A stretch of DNA of 49,488 bases, from contig CAMEEX010000004.1 in NCBI GenBank assembly GCA_945915235.1, forward strand, positions 1 through 49,488. The letters are read 5' to 3'. Both the position numbers and the translations under genes were made by a program. Shown here piece by piece: positions 35,453 through 49,488 of the stretch (its first letter is position 1; each line of letters begins with the position of its first letter). This DNA comes from an uncultured Clostridia bacterium (GTDB lineage Bacteria > Bacillota > Clostridia > Lachnospirales > Lachnospiraceae). The notes under the pieces were generated by a model. It was not told the origin of the DNA and searched no databases. It saw only the letters and a list, made by a program, of their open reading frames with translations.

Positions 35453-37702
35453 ATGAGTATTTATGATACCTTGAATGAACAGCAGAGGCAGGGGGTATTC
35501 ACAACAGAAGGTCCTGTGCTGCTTCTTGCAGGAGCAGGTTCGGGAAAGACACGCGTGCTCACGCACAGGATTGCTTATCTGATAGAGGAGAAGGATGTGA
35601 ACCCTTATAACATTCTGGCGATAACCTTCACTAACAAGGCGGCCGCCGAGATGCGTGAAAGAGTGGACAAGCTTCTTGGCATGGATGCGGGCGGGGCATG
35701 GATAATGACCTTCCATGCAGCATGTGTCAGAATACTTAGAAGATACATTGAACGTATCGGTTATGCTAACAGTTTTACGATATATGACACGGACGACCAG
35801 AAAACGATTGTGAGACAGATTTTAAAGAAGATGGATTTAGACCCGAAGCAGTATAAGGACAGGGCTGTGCTGTCCGATATATCGAGGGCGAAGGACGAAC
35901 TTAAGAGCCCTGATGATATGGAACTTGAGTCGGGAGCTAACTATCATGCTAAGATGGTCGCACAGGTGTACCGCGAGTATCAGAGACAGATGAAGGCGAA
36001 TAATGCGCTCGATTTTGACGATATTATATGCAGGACGGTTGAACTCTTTCAGTCATGTCCGGATGTCCTCGATTATTATGGAGAGCGCTTCAGATATATC
36101 ATGGTCGACGAGTATCAGGACACCAATATGGCGCAGTTCAAGCTTGTGAGTCTTTTAGCATCACGCTTTAGAAATTTGTGCGTTGTCGGCGATGATGACC
36201 AGTCCATATACAAGTTCAGAGGGGCTAACGTGAGGAACATTCTTGATTTTGAGAGTGTGTTTCCTGAGGCGGTGGTCATAAAACTCGAGCAGAACTACCG
36301 CTCGACACAGAATATTCTCGATGCGGCTAATTCTGTAATAAAGAACAACAACAAGCGCAAGGATAAGAGCCTGTGGACGGACAAGGGCTCGGGAGAAAAA
36401 ATTGCATATAACATATACAATACGGCATATGAGGAAGCATATGGGATTGTATCCGATATAAAGAGGAGAGCTGCGGAAGGAAACGCATACAATGATTTCG
36501 CGGTTCTCTACAGAACCAACGCACAGTCGAGAGCTCTCGAGGAGAAGTTTGTGGAACTTGGCGTGCCTTACAGAATATACGGAGCTGTGAATTTCTATGC
36601 ACGAAAAGAGATTAAGGACGTGCTCGCATATCTCAAGACGATAGACAATGCCCGTGACGAGGTGGCTGTAAGAAGAATTATCAATGTTCCTAAGCGCGGA
36701 ATAGGTCAGACCACAATCGAGAAGGCAGCAGCATACGCGGACGAGAACGGCATGAGCTTCTATGCTGCAGTGGCAAACGGAAGAGACATACCGTCGCTTT
36801 CTAAGGCGACGGTCGGAAAACTCGATAGTTTCTGTACACTCATATCGGCATTTAGGGCAAAGGCGGGGCAGCTCTCGATAAAGGAGCTCATATCCGACAT
36901 TGTGGAGAGCATCAAGTACGAGGAGTACCTCGCCGAGGACGATGAGCCGGACGAGATTGCCGACCGTATGTCCAATATTAATGAGCTCATCTCAAAGGCA
37001 GCAGCTTACGAGGAGACGACGGACATGCCGACACTCTCGGGCTTTCTTGAGGAAGTAGCTCTTGTGGCTGATATCGACAATATGGATGAGAACAACAATG
37101 TTGTCTCACTTATGACACTCCACAGTGCCAAGGGACTTGAGTTCCCAATCGTGTATCTGGCAGGCATGGAGGACGGAAATTTCCCGAGCTACATGGCGAT
37201 TTCATCAGGAGACCAGAGCGACCTCGAGGAGGAGAGAAGGCTCTGCTATGTGGGTATAACAAGGGCGAGACAGAGACTTGTGCTGAGCATGGCGAAGCAG
37301 CGCATGGTGCGCGGTGAGATGATGTTATGCAAGCCGTCGCGGTTCATAAGGGAAATTCCTGCTGAGCTGCTTGCAGAGAGCGGACAGGGCATAAGAAAGC
37401 CGGCATCATTCTCAAACGATGCGAAGGTGAAGGCTGCCGAGAGCGCAATGCGCGCGGCACTTCCGTGGAACAGGCCTGCCTTTTCAATGCAGGACATGAA
37501 AAAGGGTGCGCCGCAGGTAGCAGCGAGCGCTGAAGAGCTTGGTTATACCGAGGGTGACAGGGTGAAACATGTAAAGTTCGGAAACGGAACGGTGCAGAAA
37601 ATCGTCTCGGGCGGCAGGGATTTCGAGGTCACGGTGAACTTCGACACGGCCGGAGTGAAAAAAATGTTTGCATCTTTTGCAAAACTGGTAAAAATTGACT
37701 AG
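35453..37702 (+). CDS. pcrA: UvrD/PcrA-type ATP-dependent DNA helicase
   Basis: LAGAGSGKTRVLTHRIAYLI, DEYQDTNMAQF, GDDDQSIYKFRGA, LMTLHSAKGLEFPIVYLAG. Confidence 0.95.
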   Translation: MSIYDTLNEQQRQGVFTTEGPVLLLAGAGSGKTRVLTHRIAYLIEEKDVNPYNILAITFTNKAAAEMRERVDKLLGMDAGGAWIMTFHAACVRILRRYIERIGYANSFTIYDTDDQKTIVRQILKKMDLDPKQYKDRAVLSDISRAKDELKSPDDMELESGANYHAKMVAQVYREYQRQMKANNALDFDDIICRTVELFQSCPDVLDYYGERFRYIMVDEYQDTNMAQFKLVSLLASRFRNLCVVGDDDQSIYKFRGANVRNILDFESVFPEAVVIKLEQNYRSTQNILDAANSVIKNNNKRKDKSLWTDKGSGEKIAYNIYNTAYEEAYGIVSDIKRRAAEGNAYNDFAVLYRTNAQSRALEEKFVELGVPYRIYGAVNFYARKEIKDVLAYLKTIDNARDEVAVRRIINVPKRGIGQTTIEKAAAYADENGMSFYAAVANGRDIPSLSKATVGKLDSFCTLISAFRAKAGQLSIKELISDIVESIKYEEYLAEDDEPDEIADRMSNINELISKAAAYEETTDMPTLSGFLEEVALVADIDNMDENNNVVSLMTLHSAKGLEFPIVYLAGMEDGNFPSYMAISSGDQSDLEEERRLCYVGITRARQRLVLSMAKQRMVRGEMMLCKPSRFIREIPAELLAESGQGIRKPASFSNDAKVKAAESAMRAALPWNRPAFSMQDMKKGAPQVAASAEELGYTEGDRVKHVKFGNGTVQKIVSGGRDFEVTVNFDTAGVKKMFASFAKLVKID

Positions 37703-37783
37703 ATATTTTTGTTATTATATGATAAAATTATTTCTAAGTTTATATATTGAAAATAATTTTTAAATAGAAAGGAAGAATGAGTT

Positions 37784-38107
37784 ATGAATAAGCTTGAAGA
37801 TTTACTTGCACAGATTAAGAGCAAGGATTTAAAGGACATTAAGGATTTGAAAGATCTCAAGGAGCTCCTCGGAAAGAAGCAGGTTGTTGTCGAGGAGAAG
37901 AAAAAGTGCAATCCTTTAGTATGGATTTTAGCTGTGGTAGGCTTCGTGGCTGCTGTTGCGGGCATCGCTTATGCCGTATACAGATATTTCACACCTGACT
38001 ACCTTGAAGATTTTGAGGATGAGGATTACGATGATGACTTCGAAGATGAGGACGACGAGTTCGAGGACGATTTCTTCGAGGAAGAGGATGAGAAGTCAGA
38101 TAAGTAA
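37784..38107 (+). CDS. Small single-TM protein with KDL-repeat N-terminus and polyacidic C-terminus
   Basis: IKSKDLKDIKDLKDLKELLGKK; TM PLVWILAVVGFVAAVAGIAYAVY; acidic tail. Confidence 0.75.
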   Translation: MNKLEDLLAQIKSKDLKDIKDLKDLKELLGKKQVVVEEKKKCNPLVWILAVVGFVAAVAGIAYAVYRYFTPDYLEDFEDEDYDDDFEDEDDEFEDDFFEEEDEKSDK

Positions 38108-38141
38108 TTTCTGATTGAATTTAATAGTGATGACCTGATTG

Positions 38142-38173
38142 CAATAGGAGGGAAAAAGCCCTCCTATTGTTTT
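38142..38173 (+). terminator. Rho-independent terminator
   Basis: CAATAGGAGGG-aaaaag-CCCTCCTATTG-TTTT. Confidence 0.85.
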
Positions 38174-38217
38174 AGTGTGAGATTATGCTGCGGACAAACG
38201 AAGAATAATAAATATAC

Positions 38218-38634
38218 ATGAAAAGGAGTGTATTAAAGGTGAAAAAAGAGCGCAATGAATTATTGGAGTTTTTAGGAGGTCTGGCAATGCTTGTTGTCGG
38301 ACTGTATCTTTTTACCAGTAAGGCGACGGTACAGACTTCATTCTTTTCGGGGACATTGAGCCTGCACGGATTTAGTATCAACTCGGGACTGGTTATAATT
38401 CCATTTATCATAGGCATTGTATGGCTTTTTGTAAAGCCAAGCTCATTTGGTGCTAAGATAGTTACGGGAGCGGGCGTTCTTATTATCATCGTATCGGTAA
38501 TCGCGTCGACCACCATAAGACTGCCGAAGATTACGCTGTATGAATGGATATTGTATCTTGTTCTTATATTCGGTGGCGCAGGGCTGCTTGCGAGGGCTCT
38601 GTTCGGCGGTGACAAAAAGGAAGGTAAGAAGTAA
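38218..38634 (+). CDS. Small polytopic membrane protein, translationally coupled to rlmD
   Basis: Hydrophobic segments LAMLVVGLYLF, GLVIIPFIIGIVWLFV, GAGVLIIIVSVIAS; stop overlaps next start. Confidence 0.75.
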   Translation: MKRSVLKVKKERNELLEFLGGLAMLVVGLYLFTSKATVQTSFFSGTLSLHGFSINSGLVIIPFIIGIVWLFVKPSSFGAKIVTGAGVLIIIVSVIASTTIRLPKITLYEWILYLVLIFGGAGLLARALFGGDKKEGKK

Positions 38635-40019
38635 TGAAAAAAGGAGAGCACATAGAAGGAAAAGTAATTTCGGTTGCTTTTCCTAATAAGGGGAAGGTTG
38701 TGTTTGAGGACGGCACGGTGACGGTTAAGAATGTCATACCCGGACAGACGCTCGATGTCAGGATAGATAAAGTTAGAAACGGACATGCCGAAGGGACGGC
38801 GTGCGCTGTGACAGAGGAGTCGGAGCTTGTCGACGAGAGCATAAGATGCGTGCATTTCGGAAAGTGCGGCGGCTGCGTATACCAGCCGGTGCGCTATGAG
38901 GAGCAGCTAAAACTTAAGAGCGCCCAGATTGAGAAACTTCTAGAGCCTGTCGGCGGCGATTATATTTATGAAGGGATAAAGGGAAGCCCTGCCGTGGAGG
39001 AGTATCGCAATAAGATGGAATTCTCCTTCGGCGATGAGGTAAAGGACGGTCCGTTAAGCCTTGGAATGCACAAGAGAGGCAGCTTCCACGACATAGTGAC
39101 GGTCGACGGCTGCCGCATAATGGACGGAGATTTCAGAAGAATATTGGTTGAGACACTCGGTTATTTCTCGGACAGAAATATACCATTCTATAAGAAGATG
39201 CAGCATATTGGATATCTCAGGCATCTCCTTGTAAGAAAGGCGAAAAAGACCGGAGAAATCATAGTGGATATCGTGACGACATCGCAGATGGACGCGGCAC
39301 AGGAAAAAGAGCTTCTTGAGGGCTATGCGGCTCTTATAACGGGACTTGAGAAGAAGGGTGAGCTTGAGGGAAGGCTTGTCGGTGTGCTTCATACCACGAA
39401 TGACAGCCTTGCCGATGTCGTTCAAAACGACAGAACCGAAGTGCTGTACGGTCAGGATTTCTTCTATGAGGAGCTTCTTGGACTTAAGTTCAAGATAACA
39501 CCTTTTTCATTCTTCCAGACTAACTCGCTCGGAGCGGAGGTTCTGTATGATACCGTAAGAAGCTATATAGGTGATACCAAGGACAAGGTTGTGTTCGACC
39601 TGTACAGCGGAACCGGAACGATAGCGCAGCTTGCAGCGGCGGTTGCAAAGCATGTTGTAGGTGTCGAGATAGTTGAGGAGGCGGTAGAGGCAGCGGGGGA
39701 GAATGCTGCTCTTAACGGTCTTGATAACTGCGAATTCTTAGCGGGTGATGTGCTCAAGGTGATTGATGATATAGAAGAAAAACCGGATATATTGATTCTT
39801 GACCCACCGTGTGACGGAATACATCCAAAGGCACTGCCTAAGCTCATATCATACGGTGTTGACAGGATAGTATATGTATCCTGTAAGCCAACAAGCCTTG
39901 CGCGTGACATGGCGGTGTTTAACGAAAATGGATATTATATGGAAAAAGCAGTTGCAGTCGATATGTTTCCGGGAACGGCAAACACCGAGGTTGTGGCGCT
40001 TATTGCCAGAAAAGGTTAA
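38634..40019 (+). CDS. rlmD: 23S rRNA (uracil-5-)-methyltransferase RlmD/RumA family
   Basis: CVHFGKCGGCVYQ Fe-S cysteines; TRAM-like N-terminus; FDLYSGTGTIAQLAA; LDPPCDG; YVSCKPTSLARD. Confidence 0.92.
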   Translation: MKKGEHIEGKVISVAFPNKGKVVFEDGTVTVKNVIPGQTLDVRIDKVRNGHAEGTACAVTEESELVDESIRCVHFGKCGGCVYQPVRYEEQLKLKSAQIEKLLEPVGGDYIYEGIKGSPAVEEYRNKMEFSFGDEVKDGPLSLGMHKRGSFHDIVTVDGCRIMDGDFRRILVETLGYFSDRNIPFYKKMQHIGYLRHLLVRKAKKTGEIIVDIVTTSQMDAAQEKELLEGYAALITGLEKKGELEGRLVGVLHTTNDSLADVVQNDRTEVLYGQDFFYEELLGLKFKITPFSFFQTNSLGAEVLYDTVRSYIGDTKDKVVFDLYSGTGTIAQLAAAVAKHVVGVEIVEEAVEAAGENAALNGLDNCEFLAGDVLKVIDDIEEKPDILILDPPCDGIHPKALPKLISYGVDRIVYVSCKPTSLARDMAVFNENGYYMEKAVAVDMFPGTANTEVVALIARKG

Positions 40020-40037
40020 GAAAATAATAAAAATTGC

Positions 40038-40066
40038 TTGACATTCTGAGCATTTGAATATATTCT
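40038..40066 (+). promoter_or_regulatory. Putative oppA promoter
   Basis: TTGACA-17 bp-TATTCT. Confidence 0.7.
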
Positions 40067-40071
40067 ATTTA

Positions 40072-40083
40072 CGTTAATTAACG
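40072..40083. promoter_or_regulatory. 12-bp perfect palindrome at the oppA transcription start region
   Basis: CGTTAATTAACG, 6 bp after the -10 element. Confidence 0.5.
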
Positions 40084-40222
40084 CGGAATATTTTAAATTT
40101 AATACTTACTGGTATATTGCACATAAAGGGGTGGGCTCGTCTCATTCCTTTTTCTTGAATACGGCGATAATTTAAACTGGTAAAGTACAAACGCGTTAAA
40201 ATATAACAAGGAGGAAAATTTT

Positions 40223-42769
40223 ATGAGAAAGTTTTCAAAGCGTGTTCTTGCTGTTACACTTTCAACTGCAATGGTATTTTCACTTGCAGCATGTAACAAG
40301 TCGAACAACAATCCTACTGATTCTACAACATCACAGGGTCAGACAGGTGAGTCCACTTCTGCTACAGATGGCAGCAGTGAGACAGGTAACGATGGAGTGC
40401 AGACCTATACATACAATTCCTATACGTCAGCACTTGCCAACAACTGGAATCCGCATACATGGGAGTCAAATGCGGATGATGAGGTTTTAAATAGTTATTT
40501 ATCTTCACCTTTCTGTACAATGCAGATTCTCGATTCTGAGAATGGTGTATATCAGTGGGTATATGAGATGGCAACATCCATCACTGATGTGACGAAGGAT
40601 CACAAGGATGACCTCACTAAGTACAATGTAACTCTTCCATCAGGCAAGACGGCAGATGAGACAGATGCCGGCTTCGTATTCGAAATCAAGTTAAATCCGG
40701 ATGCCAAGTGGCAGGACGGAACACCTATCACTGCTGATACATACGTTTACTCAATGCAGCAGTTACTTGATTCTTCCATGAAGAACTACAGAGCTAACCT
40801 CTACTACAGCGGTGAGTCCGCAGTTGCAGGTGGTCTTGCATACTATAATTCAGAGTCTCCGCTCTACACTGCAATGGTTCCGGCTTACGGCGATGGAGAG
40901 ACTCCTGATTACTCTTATGATTTAGACGCAGGTATCGATGCAGGATATGTATATATAAGCGACAGCGCTGATACAACCCTCGGCTATTCTGTGAGCGCTC
41001 TCTGGAATGACAATGGTTTAGGAACAGAGGACGGCTATGCAGCAATCACTGACGGTGCAGATGATTACGGCTATACTAAGATTACTGCTGATAACAAGGA
41101 TACAATCTTCGGATTCATTTCTGAGGCACTTGCAGGCGGCTTCGGTATCACAGATGAGGCTGATGTAGCTAACTACACTAAGGAAATGTTATTCGTAAAC
41201 GATGGTACATTAAGCGAGAAGGTTGACTGGGATACAGTAGGTCTTTATAAGGTTGATGATTACACAATTCGTTATGTAACTCAGACATATCAGGATCTCA
41301 ACTATTTCTTAACAAGCTGTACATCAACATGGTTAGTATATGAGCCATACTATGAGGCTGGTAAGGATACAACCGGTACATTAGTAACAACTGATTACAA
41401 CACTAAGGTTGAGAATACAATGTCCTATGGTCCATACAAGTTAGTTTCTTTACAGAATGACAAGCAGATGGTATTCGAGAAGAATGAGAACTGGTATGGT
41501 TACACAGAGGAGAACGGACGTCTTGTTTCAACAACACCTTACCTTGTAGATGGTGAGAATGTTCAGAGATATGTAACAGATAAGATCGTAATCAATGTTA
41601 TGGATGATAACTCTGCTAAGCAGGCATTCTTAAAGGGTGAGGTTGATGTATGGAGCCCAAGCTCAGACGATCTTTCAACATACTCAACATCAGAGCAGTT
41701 ATACAAGGTTGATGAGACATACACAATGTCCTTCTTCTTCAACACAAACCTTGAGAAGCTTCAGGAGATGGATCGTTCAAAGGGTAACACTAACTCAGTT
41801 GTTCTCTCTAACGTCAACTTCCGTAAGGCTATGTCATTAGGTATTGACCGTACAGAGTGGGTAACAGCTACACCTGGTTACAAGCCGGCTTATGCTATAC
41901 TTAACAACTTATATTTCTATGATGTATACAATGATCCAACATCTTCATACCGTAACTCCGATGAGGCTATGCAGGCAATCTGCAACCTTTACGAGGTATC
42001 TTATGGCGATGGAACACCTTATGCAACTTTACAGGATGCATATAAGTCAATCAACGGTTACAACTTAACAGAGGCTAAGGAGCTTATGAAGACAGCTTGT
42101 GATGAGCTTGTTGAAGCAGGTCTCTACACAGCAGGCGAGGATATCGTTATCCGTATCGGTTACAAGAAGGGTGCTCTTGACTCTGCTGATAACAAGCAGG
42201 TTGAGCTCTTCAACAAGTACATCAATGCCGCTGCTGAGGGTTCAGGATTTGGCAAGATCACATTAGTAGCAGTTGATAACATCAGCGATCGTTACGTCGA
42301 TACAGCTAAGGGTGAGTACGCTATCGGCTATGGTGCTTGGGGCGGTGCTGCATTCTATCCATTCAGAAACTTCCAGGTATACTGCGATCCTGATCAGTAT
42401 TCAGTTCAGGAGATCGGCTGCTGGGATCCTACTACAGAGGAGTTAACACTCGATGTAAATGGTGAGGAAGTTACAATGACATGGCAGGCATGGTCAGGTT
42501 CCATGATCGGTTCAGGCGTATACTCAGAGGCTGATTTCTCAACAAAGCTCAGCATCACAGCTCAGTTAGAGGAGAACTTCTTAAAGAAGTACTACAGAAT
42601 TCCTCTTGCAGGAACAACAGCTTGTACAATGCTCTCATATAAGTGCTCATACTACACAGAGGACTACAACATCATGTATGGCTTCGGTGGACTTGAGCTT
42701 ATGAAGTACAACTATTCTGATCAGGAGTGGGCTGATTATATAGCAAACAACACATTAAGCTACGAATAA
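40223..42769 (+). CDS. oppA: Oligopeptide ABC transporter substrate-binding lipoprotein (enlarged)
   Basis: Lipobox SLAACNK; family 5 solute-binding features (FEIKLNPDAKWQDGTPITADTYVYS; NVNFRKAMSLGIDR); 848 aa. Confidence 0.9.
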   Translation: MRKFSKRVLAVTLSTAMVFSLAACNKSNNNPTDSTTSQGQTGESTSATDGSSETGNDGVQTYTYNSYTSALANNWNPHTWESNADDEVLNSYLSSPFCTMQILDSENGVYQWVYEMATSITDVTKDHKDDLTKYNVTLPSGKTADETDAGFVFEIKLNPDAKWQDGTPITADTYVYSMQQLLDSSMKNYRANLYYSGESAVAGGLAYYNSESPLYTAMVPAYGDGETPDYSYDLDAGIDAGYVYISDSADTTLGYSVSALWNDNGLGTEDGYAAITDGADDYGYTKITADNKDTIFGFISEALAGGFGITDEADVANYTKEMLFVNDGTLSEKVDWDTVGLYKVDDYTIRYVTQTYQDLNYFLTSCTSTWLVYEPYYEAGKDTTGTLVTTDYNTKVENTMSYGPYKLVSLQNDKQMVFEKNENWYGYTEENGRLVSTTPYLVDGENVQRYVTDKIVINVMDDNSAKQAFLKGEVDVWSPSSDDLSTYSTSEQLYKVDETYTMSFFFNTNLEKLQEMDRSKGNTNSVVLSNVNFRKAMSLGIDRTEWVTATPGYKPAYAILNNLYFYDVYNDPTSSYRNSDEAMQAICNLYEVSYGDGTPYATLQDAYKSINGYNLTEAKELMKTACDELVEAGLYTAGEDIVIRIGYKKGALDSADNKQVELFNKYINAAAEGSGFGKITLVAVDNISDRYVDTAKGEYAIGYGAWGGAAFYPFRNFQVYCDPDQYSVQEIGCWDPTTEELTLDVNGEEVTMTWQAWSGSMIGSGVYSEADFSTKLSITAQLEENFLKKYYRIPLAGTTACTMLSYKCSYYTEDYNIMYGFGGLELMKYNYSDQEWADYIANNTLSYE

Positions 42770-42799
42770 GTCACTTTAACTAATACAGAACAAAACTCA

Positions 42800-42834
42800 G
42801 ACTGCGGAGAAGCAGAAGTTCTCCGCAGTTTTTG
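42800..42834 (+). terminator. oppA terminator
   Basis: ACTGCGGAGAA...TTCTCCGCAGTTTTTG. Confidence 0.85.
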
Positions 42835-42923
42835 TTCAGTAACTATGTTTTTCTTTGTTTTGGTTTGGTTACCGCTTAGTGGAAAATTACCAATGATTAC
42901 TTAGGATAATTGCAATATATTAG

Positions 42924-42952
42924 TTGCTTTGACAGTGAAAATATATTATAAT
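42924..42952 (+). promoter_or_regulatory. Putative oppBCDF promoter
   Basis: TTGCTT-17 bp-TATAAT. Confidence 0.6.
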
Positions 42953-43041
42953 TTCGTGTAGCTGAACCTAAACAAAGAAATACATTGTTTAGAACCAGTA
43001 TATAAGTTTAAGGATAAAGTAATAAAAAGGAGAAAGCTCTA

Positions 43042-44040
43042 ATGGGAAAGGCTAAAAAAACCGGCGGACGAAGAAGTGGAATGGGTAAATACGTTGTAAA
43101 ACGTATTGTATTGATGTTTTTTACATTTTTCATCATTTCCACGATTTGTTTTATGTTAGTACGATTACTTCCTAGAGAGCTGCCTACGGATAAGGTTCAG
43201 GCGGCTGCTATTCAGGAAAGATGGGAGGCACTTGGTTACAATAAACCATTGCTTGTCCAGTATGGTATATATCTGAAGAATATTTTTACCAAGTGGGACT
43301 TCGGTACGTCATGGTACATTCAGTTCAGACAGCCTGCATGGGACGTACTTACAAGCAGACTTTTACCTACCGTTCTGGTGAACCTGTATTCACTTTTACT
43401 TTCCATTCCTTTAGGAATAGGACTTGGTATATTTGCCGCTATCAAGAAGAATAAATGGCAGGATTCATTGATAAGTACACTTGTCATGGTATTTATCTCT
43501 GTACCTAGCTATGTATATGCATTTTTGGTTCAGTACTTATTTTATTTCAAGCTTGGCTGGCTTCCGCTTATGGTGTACTCCATCAACGACGCAGGCGGTT
43601 CATGGCTTACAGGCAAGATGTTCCACAGTATGATCGCACCTATTCTTGCACTTTCCTTCGGTGAGATTGCAGGCTTATGCCGATTTACAAGAGCAGAGCT
43701 TACCGAGACACTGACATCAGATTATATGCTTCTTGCGCGTACTAAGGGACTTACCCGTGGACAGGCAACTGTAAGACATGCGCTCAAGAATGCGATGGTA
43801 CCGATACTTCCTATGATTATCTCAAGCTTTATCGGAATCATGGGTGGTTCAATGATTATCGAGCAGATTTTCTCAATTCCGGGCGTTGGACAGTTGTATA
43901 TCAAGTCCATTACTCTGTTTGACTACGATGTATTTATGATGGATAGTATTTTCTATACATTTATAGGTCTTTTGGCAAACATCGTTGTAGATATAAGCTA
44001 CGGCTTTATTGATCCTAGAATAAGAATGGGGGAGAAATAG
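43042..44040 (+). CDS. oppB: Oligopeptide ABC transporter permease
   Basis: RIVLMFFTFFIISTICFMLVRLLP; EAA loop LLARTKGLTRGQATVRHALKNAMVPILP. Confidence 0.93.
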   Translation: MGKAKKTGGRRSGMGKYVVKRIVLMFFTFFIISTICFMLVRLLPRELPTDKVQAAAIQERWEALGYNKPLLVQYGIYLKNIFTKWDFGTSWYIQFRQPAWDVLTSRLLPTVLVNLYSLLLSIPLGIGLGIFAAIKKNKWQDSLISTLVMVFISVPSYVYAFLVQYLFYFKLGWLPLMVYSINDAGGSWLTGKMFHSMIAPILALSFGEIAGLCRFTRAELTETLTSDYMLLARTKGLTRGQATVRHALKNAMVPILPMIISSFIGIMGGSMIIEQIFSIPGVGQLYIKSITLFDYDVFMMDSIFYTFIGLLANIVVDISYGFIDPRIRMGEK

Positions 44041-44041
44041 T

Positions 44042-45628
44042 ATGCAGGACAACAAATTAAACTATGAAAACATCCCATTGGAGAAATTCGAATTTGTTCA
44101 TGATGGTGATAGGATTTCCGATAAGAAGTTTGAGGATAAGCCTATCAGCTACTTTAAGGACGCATGGATACGTTTCCGCAAGAACCGTGCCAGCGTTATT
44201 GCGACGGTTATAATTGCACTTATCGTACTTTTCGCATTTATAACACCTCTGTTTATCAGAAATTACGACTCGAGATTTATGGACGCATATTATGCAAAGA
44301 AGGGTCCAAGAAACGAGTTTTTGTCACAGTTTGGAATAGCAAATGGTTCCGTTGCGCGTAAGTTCTCGGATAAGGGTCTTATCAAGGCAGTCGCTATCGG
44401 TATGGGCGCTGAGGATCACGAGGGAAATGGCAATGTGACACTCGAGGAAGGACTCGCAAGCAAGTATCAGCCGATTATTGAAGGCTCAATAGGAGAACCT
44501 TCGATAACATACGATGCTGCAAAGAAGGAAAAGAAGGTATATGGTGCCAATATTGATACTTATCTTGAAGTCGGCTTCATGTACAGCAGTATTGAGCAGT
44601 CAGAGTACAATGATATTTTAAGATATCAGGAGGAGACGGGAATTCAGGTTTTATATCCTCTTGTTGCGGATAATGAATGGAATTTCGATGCGTTAGATGC
44701 CAACTACTGGTATAAGACGAAGAAGGGTACTCCTGTTTATATCGATAAGAATGGAAAAGCCAAGACTATCGAGTACGGAGAGGGAATGGTCTTAGAGGAC
44801 AATTATGTCCGCGATGCAGATGGCAATCCTGTTTACTTTGAGTATACCGGCGGTGGAAGCTTCGATACCGCACAGTACAAGGTAAGAGTTCTCTACTATA
44901 ATTACTATCAGTACAAGAATGGATTTACTCCGCAGTATATTCTCGGAACGGACAGCCAGGGATATGACCTCGCACTCAGACTTGCAGATGGTATCAAGCT
45001 GAGCTTGCTTGTGGCAGTATGTGTATCGGTTGTCAACTTCATAATCGGTGCCGCTTATGGTGCTATTGAGGGCTATTACGGCGGAACGGTTGATATCGTG
45101 TTAGAGCGAGTTACAGATGTATTGAGCGGTGTTCCGTTCATCATCGTTGCCACATTGTTCCAGTTACACCTTGCTTCAAAGCTCGGACCGGTTGCCTGCC
45201 TTATTTTTGCTTATGTACTCACAGGATGGATTGGTACAGCTTCAAGAGTTCGTACACAGTTCTACAGATTTAAGAATTCAGAGTATGTTATGGCGGCAAG
45301 AACACTTGGCGCGAAGGACAGAAGACTTATCTGGAAGCATATTTTCCCTAACTCATTGGGAACAATAGTTACCTCAGCGGCACTGTCAATTCCAAGTGTA
45401 ATCAATTCAGAGAGTATGTTAAGTTATTTGGGTATCGTTAAGCTCGGCACAGCTTCCACGACTTCACTCGGTAACCTTCTTGCTGAGGCACAGGGTATCT
45501 GGACTAACTACCCTCATCTTATGATATGCCCTGCTTTAGTGCTTTCGTTACTTATGATATGCTTTAACTTGTTCGGTAATGGATTAAGAGATGCATTCAA
45601 TCCATCGCTGCGTGGTGTGGAGGAATAA
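44042..45628 (+). CDS. oppC: Oligopeptide ABC transporter permease with large extracytoplasmic insertion
   Basis: TM1 VIATVIIALIVLFAFITPLF; ILGTDSQGYDLALRLADGIKLSLLV; EAA loop MAARTLGAKDRRLIWKHIFPNSLGTIV; 528 aa. Confidence 0.92.
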   Translation: MQDNKLNYENIPLEKFEFVHDGDRISDKKFEDKPISYFKDAWIRFRKNRASVIATVIIALIVLFAFITPLFIRNYDSRFMDAYYAKKGPRNEFLSQFGIANGSVARKFSDKGLIKAVAIGMGAEDHEGNGNVTLEEGLASKYQPIIEGSIGEPSITYDAAKKEKKVYGANIDTYLEVGFMYSSIEQSEYNDILRYQEETGIQVLYPLVADNEWNFDALDANYWYKTKKGTPVYIDKNGKAKTIEYGEGMVLEDNYVRDADGNPVYFEYTGGGSFDTAQYKVRVLYYNYYQYKNGFTPQYILGTDSQGYDLALRLADGIKLSLLVAVCVSVVNFIIGAAYGAIEGYYGGTVDIVLERVTDVLSGVPFIIVATLFQLHLASKLGPVACLIFAYVLTGWIGTASRVRTQFYRFKNSEYVMAARTLGAKDRRLIWKHIFPNSLGTIVTSAALSIPSVINSESMLSYLGIVKLGTASTTSLGNLLAEAQGIWTNYPHLMICPALVLSLLMICFNLFGNGLRDAFNPSLRGVEE

Positions 45629-45631
45629 TAT

Positions 45632-47800
45632 ATGGATAAGATATTAGAAGTTAAGAACCTGAAAGTTTCCTTCCGTACACAGGGAGGAACCGTTAAGGCT
45701 GTTAGAGATATTTCGTTTGACCTTGAAAGAGGTAAGACACTTGCAATCGTTGGAGAGTCCGGCTCAGGTAAGTCAGTTACATCCAAGGCAATCCTCGGTA
45801 TCCTTGCCGGTAACTCCATTATCGAGGGTGGAGAGATACTGTATGATGGAAAGGATTTATTATCCATTACTGAGGATGAGATGTACAAAATCAGAGGTGA
45901 TAAGATATCGATGATTTTCCAGGATCCATTGTCCTCCCTCAATCCTATTGTAAAAATCGGACGTCAGATTACAGAGGCGATGCTTCTCAAGAATAAGGCG
46001 AACAGAAAAGAAGCGAGAAATGAATTCAACTCCCTTCTCAAGATATTGAAGAGCAACATGATTGCGGCTCAGGGAAGTGGCTCAGAAGCAGAAATCACAG
46101 AAATGGTAAAGACTTTTGACGGTTTTGCAACTCTGTCGACAAAGCTTGAGATGCCGTACAATGATGCCATGGCAAATGCCGAGGAAATCAAGGCATCGGT
46201 TGAGGATCTTCTTTTCATGGTCGAGAAGAAGCAGAATCCTGATGTTAGAGAGAAGCTTACAGATTATGTCCTGATGCTTCAGAAGGTTCAGAACGAGTTT
46301 ATCGAGGATGAGCATGCTGCAAAGCTTACAGAGCTTCTTGATAAATGCAAGAAAGAGAAGGACAGCTATCCAAAGAAGGCACAGGAGAATGTCACGCTGT
46401 CTGCTTCACTTGAAAAGCTGTTAAATGATACAGTCAAGCTTATGGATGACATTATCAACCAGCCAAGACCTAATTTCTTCAGAATAGGTTACTATAAGCT
46501 TAAGGGAAAGGATTGCAGCATCAAGGGAAAGGGTGTTGAGAAACTCAATGAGGAGGCGCTTGCATTCCTCAACGATAACTTCATGAACCATTTCCTTGAA
46601 CTTGAGGATAACGGTATACGCTATTCATTTGAAAATGCACTTGAGAACAAGAAGAAGCTTCTTCCTAAGCTTGAGGGGGCTAAGAAGTACTACGAGGGCA
46701 GTTTCACAAAGGCTGAGGCTAAGAGCTATGCGAAGACTCTTGCTGATTTAGTTCCGGCGTCCATCGACCAGCTTGAAATCAACAAGGACAGTGTTGCATA
46801 TACATTCAGAACCAGTCTTAATAAGGCTATTGATAAGTATTTTTCTGCTCAGAAAACCAACCCGAAGGAGGAGGCAAGATTTGCAAAGCAGTCTGCCAAG
46901 AGAGAAAAGCTTATTGCAAAGGGCAAGAACGTAGACTGGAAGGTTGTTCCGAAGTCAGTTTACGACTTAGACGAATTGAAGAATAATATAATACATGTAG
47001 TCACACGTCTTGAGGACAAGTATAAGGCGGAGATAGCAGCTGCAGAGAACTTCGATGTTGAGGCAAGAGGAATAGAAATCGTCGATTTCTTCAAGGCTAA
47101 GGCTTCGCAGGTTGTATATAAGGTAACTAAGGCGATGGCGAAGGAGAAGGCAATCAAGCTTATGGAGGAAGTTGGTATCCATGAGCCTAGACGCAGATAC
47201 AATCAGTATCCGTTCGAGTTCTCAGGTGGTATGAGACAGCGTATTGTTATCGCGATTGCGCTCGCTGCAAACCCTGACATTCTTATCTGTGATGAGCCTA
47301 CAACGGCACTTGATGTTACCATTCAGGCACAGATACTTGAGCTTATCAACCAGTTGAAGGTTGAGCGTAACCTTTCCGTTATCTTCATCACACATGACCT
47401 TGGTGTAGTTGCAAACATGGCTGATGAGATTGCCGTTATGTATGCAGGTAAGATAGTTGAGTACGGAACAGCACAGGATATCTTCTATGACCCGAGACAT
47501 CCGTATACATGGGCTCTCCTTTCCTCAATGCCGGATCTTGATACGAGCGATAAGCTCGATGCTATTCCGGGTACACCGCCAAATATGATTTATCCACCTG
47601 TTGGTGATGCTTTTGCGGACAGAAATAAGTATGCCATGAAGATTGACTTCGAGAAGCAGCCGCCTATGTTCAAGATAAGTGATACACACATGGCAGCTAC
47701 ATGGTTACTTCATCCTAATGCACCGAAGGTCGAGATACCTAAGATTATTACGGATCGTATTGCAAGAATGAAACAGAAAAGCGCAGGAGGTGAAATCTAA
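45632..47800 (+). CDS. oppD: Oligopeptide ABC transporter ATPase with large internal insertion
   Basis: Walker A GESGSGKS, Q-loop MIFQDPLSSLNP, signature FSGGMRQRIVIA, Walker B ILICDEPTTALD; 722 aa. Confidence 0.92.
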   Translation: MDKILEVKNLKVSFRTQGGTVKAVRDISFDLERGKTLAIVGESGSGKSVTSKAILGILAGNSIIEGGEILYDGKDLLSITEDEMYKIRGDKISMIFQDPLSSLNPIVKIGRQITEAMLLKNKANRKEARNEFNSLLKILKSNMIAAQGSGSEAEITEMVKTFDGFATLSTKLEMPYNDAMANAEEIKASVEDLLFMVEKKQNPDVREKLTDYVLMLQKVQNEFIEDEHAAKLTELLDKCKKEKDSYPKKAQENVTLSASLEKLLNDTVKLMDDIINQPRPNFFRIGYYKLKGKDCSIKGKGVEKLNEEALAFLNDNFMNHFLELEDNGIRYSFENALENKKKLLPKLEGAKKYYEGSFTKAEAKSYAKTLADLVPASIDQLEINKDSVAYTFRTSLNKAIDKYFSAQKTNPKEEARFAKQSAKREKLIAKGKNVDWKVVPKSVYDLDELKNNIIHVVTRLEDKYKAEIAAAENFDVEARGIEIVDFFKAKASQVVYKVTKAMAKEKAIKLMEEVGIHEPRRRYNQYPFEFSGGMRQRIVIAIALAANPDILICDEPTTALDVTIQAQILELINQLKVERNLSVIFITHDLGVVANMADEIAVMYAGKIVEYGTAQDIFYDPRHPYTWALLSSMPDLDTSDKLDAIPGTPPNMIYPPVGDAFADRNKYAMKIDFEKQPPMFKISDTHMAATWLLHPNAPKVEIPKIITDRIARMKQKSAGGEI

Positions 47801-49053
47801 TGGAAGATAAGAATCAGGAGGTTTTACTTCGCGTCGAAAATCTTTGTCAGTATTTCGGCCCTACTAAGGCAGTGGATGGCGTAAGCTTCGACATTAAGAA
47901 GGGTGAGGTTTTCGGTCTTGTTGGTGAGTCCGGCTGTGGTAAGACTACAACAGGACGTTCCATTATCAAGATTTATGATATTACAAGCGGTAATATATAT
48001 TTCGAAAACCAGAGAATATGTGCCGGAACAGGAAGCTATAAGCTTGCGATTGAGAATGCGAAGGCAGAGGCTAAGAAGGCAGTAAAGGAGTTGGACGAGG
48101 ATTCTAAGAAAAATCCTTCCAATGCAGATGCCAACAATAAGAAAAAGGCTGAGATTAAGGCAAATCTTGACAAGACAATAGCTGAGAATAAGGCGCAGAT
48201 AAAGAGCGCCGTGTTCGACCATAAGAACTGCGACAAGGAATACTCAAAGAAGCTTGTAGCTGAGGTGAATGAAAGATATAAGAAGGCTATGGCTGAGGCT
48301 GGAAATGACAGCGCAAAGTTAGCTGAATTAAAGAAGAAATATAAGGATGAATTAAGAGTAGCAAAGAATACTCGTCTTATTACCAAGATACAGATGATTT
48401 TTCAGGACCCTATAGCATCACTCAATCCGCGTATGACAGTGCGCGAGATTATTGCTGAGGGACTTGTAATCAATGGAATAAGGGACAAAGAGTTCATTGA
48501 CGAGAAGGTGTATGAGATACTTGAGATGGTAGGACTTGTAAGAGAGCATGCGGGACGTTACCCACATGAGTTCTCAGGTGGTCAGCGTCAGCGTATCGGT
48601 ATCGCACGTTCTGTTATCATGAGACCGGATCTGCTCATTGCGGACGAGCCTATTTCAGCACTTGACGTATCCATTCAGGCGCAGGTTATTAATCTTTTGA
48701 ATGATCTGCGCGAGAAGCTCGGTCTTACTATCTTATTTATCGCACATGATTTGTCGGTTGTTAAGTATTTCTCCGACAGAATCGGTGTAATGTATTTTGG
48801 TAATATGGTAGAGCTGGCTTCCTCAGATGAGTTATTCGCTCATCCGCTGCATCCTTACACACGCTCGCTGCTTTCGGCTATTCCGCTTCCGGATCCGGAT
48901 GCCGAGAAGAACAGGGTTCGTATAACCTATAACCCTATTGCAGAGCATGACTATACAGTTGATAAGCCGTCGATGCGTGAGGTTGTTCCGGGACATTTTG
49001 TATATTGTAACGATGCAGAAGAGGCACGTTACCGTGAGGAACTTGGTAAGTGA
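47800..49053 (+). CDS. oppF: Oligopeptide ABC transporter ATPase with coiled-coil-like insertion
   Basis: Walker [11 protein letters not shown]-loop [16 protein letters not shown], signature [12 protein letters not shown], Walker [13 protein letters not shown]; 417 aa. Confidence 0.92.
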
Positions 49054-49472
49054 AAAAAATTACTAAAAATAAAATAATATCATATAGTGTCATTGCAGCG
49101 GTAGGTCTGCTGATGTCATATGTTTTTCTGAGGCTCAGGTCATTCGGAGCTTTGACATCACCTGCCGAGAGATACATGATGCTGGCTGATGGCTTTACTA
49201 TTCCGGGTATCTCGTTTCTGATGTTTGGAGCTTTGATATGGGTGGCAGGTCTTGGGGCACTGGACGGTCTCGCCTTCGTAATGAAGGGACTTGTGAGGAG
49301 ACTTATTCCGGGGTCGCGCCTTAACAGCGATGATAACGAGAGTTATTATGAGTATATCCAGAAGAGGCGCGCGAAAAAGACCAAAGCTCATATGCCGTTA
49401 GTTCTGGTCGGAGCCGCGTATACTGTGGTGGCGGTGATATTTATAATATTATTTTGTTGCCTTGGGTATTAA
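49050..49472 (+). CDS. DUF3899-like membrane protein
   Basis: GTG start overlapping oppF stop; TM segments; GALDGLAFVMKGLVRRL. Confidence 0.65.
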   Translation: MKKITKNKIISYSVIAAVGLLMSYVFLRLRSFGALTSPAERYMMLADGFTIPGISFLMFGALIWVAGLGALDGLAFVMKGLVRRLIPGSRLNSDDNESYYEYIQKRRAKKTKAHMPLVLVGAAYTVVAVIFIILFCCLGY

Positions 49473-49488
49473 AGCACATTTTTACGGA

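Follow-up and report, generated by a model that had tools for sequence, protein, structure and literature searches.

An OppC permease subunit with a large conserved ectodomain in gut Clostridia: a candidate docking platform for an enlarged OppA

The window, the whole stretch of 49,488 nucleotides analysed here, is from an uncultured Lachnospiraceae bacterium (Clostridia) and carries a complete oppABCDF cluster on the forward strand. The first gene, oppA (40223..42769), encodes an enlarged lipoprotein-type peptide-binding protein of 848 aa (SBP_bac_5) with a lipobox-like LAAC in its N-terminal sequence. It is followed by oppB (43042..44040; 332 aa), which is of ordinary size and has no large ectodomain, and by oppC (44042..45628), a single open frame of 528 aa encoding the permease subunit with the ectodomain. 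The two ATPase genes are oppD (45632..47800; 722 aa), with an insertion of more than 300 aa that is usual in the clade but not obligatory, and oppF (47800..49053; 417 aa), which carries roughly 100 aa of inserted sequence. The OppD insertion sits within the ATPase domain, and the best NCBIfam model for this protein is the Mollicutes OppD MMSYN1_0167 (464.9 bits, below the 740-bit cutoff); the OppF insertion lies between Walker A and the remainder of the ATPase domain, with MMSYN1_0168 as best model. A scan of positions 36000-49488 for RNA elements gave no Rfam match near the operon.

The oppC product is an OppC/DppC permease of a type I importer by its Pfam domains, its cluster order and its core match to solved OppCs. 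OppC_N (aa 36-82, 46.2 bits) and BPD_transp_1 (aa 340-524, 95.2 bits) both score above cutoff, and the core matches the OppC of Mycobacterium tuberculosis (8j5q; TMt 0.74, 225 columns) and of Escherichia coli (8z21; 0.71, 221 columns). TM1 (aa 49-71; 44186..44254, +) is seen as a helix in the AlphaFold2 model and in the hydropathy, and the ordinary core, comprising TM2-TM6 and the EAA loop, occupies aa 301-528 (44942..45625, +). The preliminary description had placed aa 75-298 (44264-44935) between TM1 and the conserved LGTD region, and this is confirmed by LGTD starting at aa 301 and by the aligned spacing, the soluble domain spanning aa 72-300. From TM1 to GTD there are 228 aligned residues, versus 21 in minimal relatives; OppC-type paralogs of the same genome have 21 (two proteins) or 45 (one protein). 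In sequence alignments the 8j5q and 8z21 OppCs lack the ectodomain and pass from TM1 to GTD within a few dozen residues, and in Foldseek they align with the full protein over about 220-225 columns, the core only.

Two halves can be distinguished in the ectodomain. The N-half (aa 75-180; 44264..44581, +) carries the pattern PPR..LGI.DG ... ID.Y..VGF. The C-half (aa 185-298; 44594..44935, +) is the more conserved, with a mean distance of 0.78 versus 1.26 for the N-half, and no relative of it was detected outside the clade. It contains the signature RVLYYNYYQY (aa 282-291; 44885..44914, +), which forms the last strand and helix before LGTD and in which R282, V283, L284, Y285, N287 and Y288 are invariant. 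In the alignment W223 and N254 are further invariant residues of the ectodomain.

The ectodomain is predicted to be a compact, extracytoplasmic unit. Modelled alone with AlphaFold2 from an alignment of 81 ectodomains, it has a mean pLDDT of 94.4 and a pTM of 0.90; the full-length OppC model (pLDDT 85.9, pTM 0.78) shows TM1 at aa 49-71, the same ectodomain elements (pLDDT about 83-97 per 10-residue block) and long membrane helices from aa 310 on. The EAA loop of type I importers is cytoplasmic. Here it lies around aa 411-430, three membrane crossings away from the ectodomain, and this, together with five K/R residues upstream of TM1, puts the segment outside. The soluble, extracytoplasmic character proposed in the preliminary description is therefore backed by the predicted model, the transmembrane topology and the EAA loop three helices downstream, and the topology check gave no cytoplasmic placement. 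Foldseek with the predicted domain, a check proposed there, gave no significant match, the lowest E being 1.3 in PDB and 0.22 in BFVD. Residues 75-298 match no Pfam or NCBIfam family, nor any PDB sequence at a meaningful E-value, whether as a single sequence or as an 81-member profile, and the 81 members gave scattered weak Pfam matches, each in a single member. A known domain was rejected on the strength of these searches, and the predicted ectodomain is without a known fold match in Pfam, NCBIfam, PDB and BFVD.

A single pattern scan across 85,462 species genomes turned up 189 relatives; the 80 best of these were retrieved and read. In all 80 the domain lies inside the OppC frame, so the architecture is neither a product of chance nor a fusion created by assembly. 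The oppABCDF order surrounds the ectodomain OppC in nearly all of these 80 loci where the contig allows it to be seen. By their titles they come from metagenome-derived assemblies, mostly of Clostridia from the gut of ruminants and other animals; a few are from Bacilli/Erysipelotrichaceae, and one bears the label Gammaproteobacteria. The segment was found in 14 of 392 genomes of the order by protein search and, by profile search, in 7 of the 392 genomes of a class sample; in a 300-genome phylum sample the profile matched the bacterium's own genome only. Most members of the ectodomain clade have an OppD of about 700-740 aa and an OppF of about 400 aa, with an OppB of about 320 aa. In four loci (L064, L084, L088, L091) OppD measures only 344-352 aa and the OppC ectodomain is kept; OppA is about 700 aa in the last three.

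Relatives with smaller loops, found by a core-only search in 295 genomes of the order, suggest where the domain came from. Aligned OppC loops measure 21, 56, 84-98, 206-285 or about 313-322 aa. A quick tree, in which some branches are long, was built from the OppC core with the loop left out. It gathers the large loops (35 rows of 206-248 aa, together with L023 and L110) into a single group with an SH-aLRT of 99, which sits within the rows that have 84-98-aa loops, and the five loop-size groups require 6 changes on this core tree versus 24.4 for shuffled labels. With hhalign, the N-half aligns from PPR..LGI.DG to ID.Y..VGF with a profile of eleven 56-98-aa loops taken from other OppCs in the order (Prob 95, P 3.5e-8), and the C-half (about 115 aa) gives no match to these loops (P 0.045). 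Internal duplication of one half into the other was not detected by hhalign (P 0.2). The preliminary description had taken the whole segment for an inserted domain; this stands for the C-half (about aa 185-298), which looks new, but not for the N-half, which shares homology with the TM1-TM2 subdomain that other OppCs have. Nor is the segment a standard DppC N-terminal domain, the reading that close homologs might have imposed, though its N-half is rooted in one type of OppC loop. Judged by sequence, about half of it is an elaborated loop subdomain that OppC already possessed and not a clean insertion. A separate OppC branch (L127-L130) has loops of about 320 aa, and OppD there measures 458-465 aa in L145-L147. 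A shared origin with these loops was rejected, since only PPR..LGI.DGT matches and the C-half finds no counterpart; they would have expanded separately, or have diverged too far for detection. The second OppC of L099 (456 aa, in another operon) has a 128-aa TM1-GTD loop and falls in a different part of the tree.

Among the nearest known systems are OppCs of the AmiD/Opp3C type, in which the same loop of the same subunit holds a small TM1-TM2 subdomain (NF045475; PMC11192437); the present domain is at the AmiD position and enlarged. Their loops of 56-98 aa contrast with 228 aa and a new C-half in this OppC. The NCBIfam Opp3C equivalog NF045475 matches the 56-98-aa-loop relatives end to end (388-433 bits), whereas on this protein it matches in two stretches only (best 286-524) with 270.3 bits, under the 450-bit cutoff, which leaves it outside that equivalog. 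In AF-Multimer models the TM1-TM2 coil of AmiD is placed on lobe 2 of the oligopeptide-binding protein (PMC11192437). Pneumococcal AmiC, the OppB-type subunit (498 aa) of the AmiCDEF importer, has two ectodomains, ECD1 and ECD2, that were modelled with AF-Multimer as a clamp on the binding protein (PMC11192437). In both AmiC and the present protein, TM1 of an oligopeptide permease is followed by a large extracellular region, but here it is on OppC and the 332-aa OppB is ordinary, so that the permease is not of the AmiC type, in which an OppB-type subunit bears the ectodomain. Compared with a single AmiC-like OppB from our set (L039), the ectodomain profile gave no match (P 0.36). That 499-aa protein (L039:867-2363) belongs to a second Opp cluster adjoining the ectodomain cluster. 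The ectodomain OppC may work like the AmiC arrangement without being a member of it.

Two further importers offer parallels. The P2 loop of MalF lies between TM3 and TM4. Like the present domain, it is a folded extracytoplasmic domain on a subunit of a type I importer, but it belongs to another permease family and another loop, and the full OppC matches MalF weakly in Foldseek. In simulations the P2 loop of E. coli MalF moves around MalE as a rigid body (PMC8134467). In E. coli DppB a periplasmic scoop motif after TM1 enters the DppA cleft (PMC12136057); it likewise follows TM1 of a peptide importer subunit and engages the binding protein, but consists of two short helices on DppB, and DppC has no large domain.

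Several features of OppA are consistent with a contact between the two proteins. Across 18 operons, near relatives included, OppA length correlates with OppC length (Spearman 0.80, p 7e-5, a p value that ignores shared ancestry). OppCs of 305-316 aa accompany OppAs of 547-584 aa, those of 337-345 aa OppAs of 546-549 aa, and those of 376-400 aa OppAs of 580-658 aa; OppCs of 513-565 and 614-619 aa are found with OppAs of 695-907 and 700-867 aa, respectively. Two OppA insertions, aa 585-603 (41975..42031, +) and aa 745-766 (42455..42520, +), are present in every sampled ectodomain operon and nearly absent elsewhere. They come after the NFRKA...DR stretch, which aligns to aa 280-329 of 5kzt, and from this alignment and the general domain layout of OppA we take them to belong to domain III (lobe 2). 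The most variable insertion (aa 211-332; 40853..41218, +) is in domain II and not in lobe 2, and some members lack it or have a short version of it. Distances were compared over 64 complete operons with the OppC core, OppB, OppD and OppF controlled and shared ancestry left in. In this comparison the C-half tracks OppA (partial r 0.39, p 0.001) and OppA lobe 2 (0.37), versus 0.17 for the N-half. OppB (0.28) and the OppC core (0.34) also track OppA; OppF, which makes no contact with OppA, does not (-0.05). The tracking of OppA by the C-half fits contact.

The explanation we favour, with moderate confidence, is that the small TM1-TM2 subdomain of OppC was enlarged, the C-terminal half of about 115 aa being newly added, and that the resulting ectodomain would provide the enlarged lipoprotein OppA with a docking platform or clamp. 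Docking would probably be through OppA lobe 2 (domain III), and OppA would be held over the OppB/OppC channel during peptide release. Docking, which the preliminary description had suggested alongside peptide sensing, is the best reading because OppA grows with the OppC loop, because the domain III insertions are shared and because C-half distances track OppA, and it is further favoured by the precedent of the AF-Multimer models of the Ami system (PMC11192437). The analysis shows the domain with its fold confidence, its family, its origin and the relation of its size to OppA; the outer side follows from topology, and contact with OppA and its effect on transport are inferred.

These observations have also to be weighed against extra sequence having accumulated in OppA, OppC, OppD and OppF as general subunit inflation in this lineage, with no joint function. 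OppD size follows the clade too, as the large OppD and OppF of most members illustrate, and inflation could therefore explain part of the OppA relation; however, OppB remains at about 320 aa, the four loci without the OppD insertion still have the ectodomain, and a confident, conserved fold is not what inflation would lead one to expect, which makes it quite improbable as a full account. The same compact, well-predicted fold, together with the conservation of the C-half and a set of invariant residues that are aromatic or polar (W223, N254, Y285, N287, Y288), would suit a sensor whose ligand is a peptide, a wall fragment or an ion and which uses the permease for gating or signalling. This is unlikely, given that OppA already binds peptide and that the ectodomain matches no ligand-binding fold in PDB. 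About as unlikely is a structural spacer or anchor that keeps the assembly stable or adapts it to the cell wall with no direct contact to OppA: the variable N-half and the spread of loop sizes in the clade (about 206-285 aa) would be expected of it, but the C-half is more conserved than the OppA domain II region and follows OppA beyond what the other subunits account for. A location at the entrance to a peptide importer also raises the idea of an extracellular enzyme, for example a peptidase feeding the importer, which is highly improbable since no enzyme family or fold was matched in Pfam or PDB and the invariant ectodomain residues lack His, Cys and Ser and form no obvious catalytic set.

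Beyond docking itself, we suggest tentatively that the new-fold OppC domain is a second, separately evolved way of clamping a binding protein, placed on the opposite subunit to that in AmiC and co-expanded with an unusually large OppA in gut Clostridia, perhaps for longer peptides. No account of this form of OppC came up in the searches made of the open-licence literature, and the importer type may have escaped study because the 80 loci read come from metagenome-derived assemblies. The work delineates a conserved ectodomain for which the libraries searched contain no fold match, and whose growth from an importer loop can be traced. The OppA-OppC pair described here provides a concrete case for testing the docking of binding proteins.
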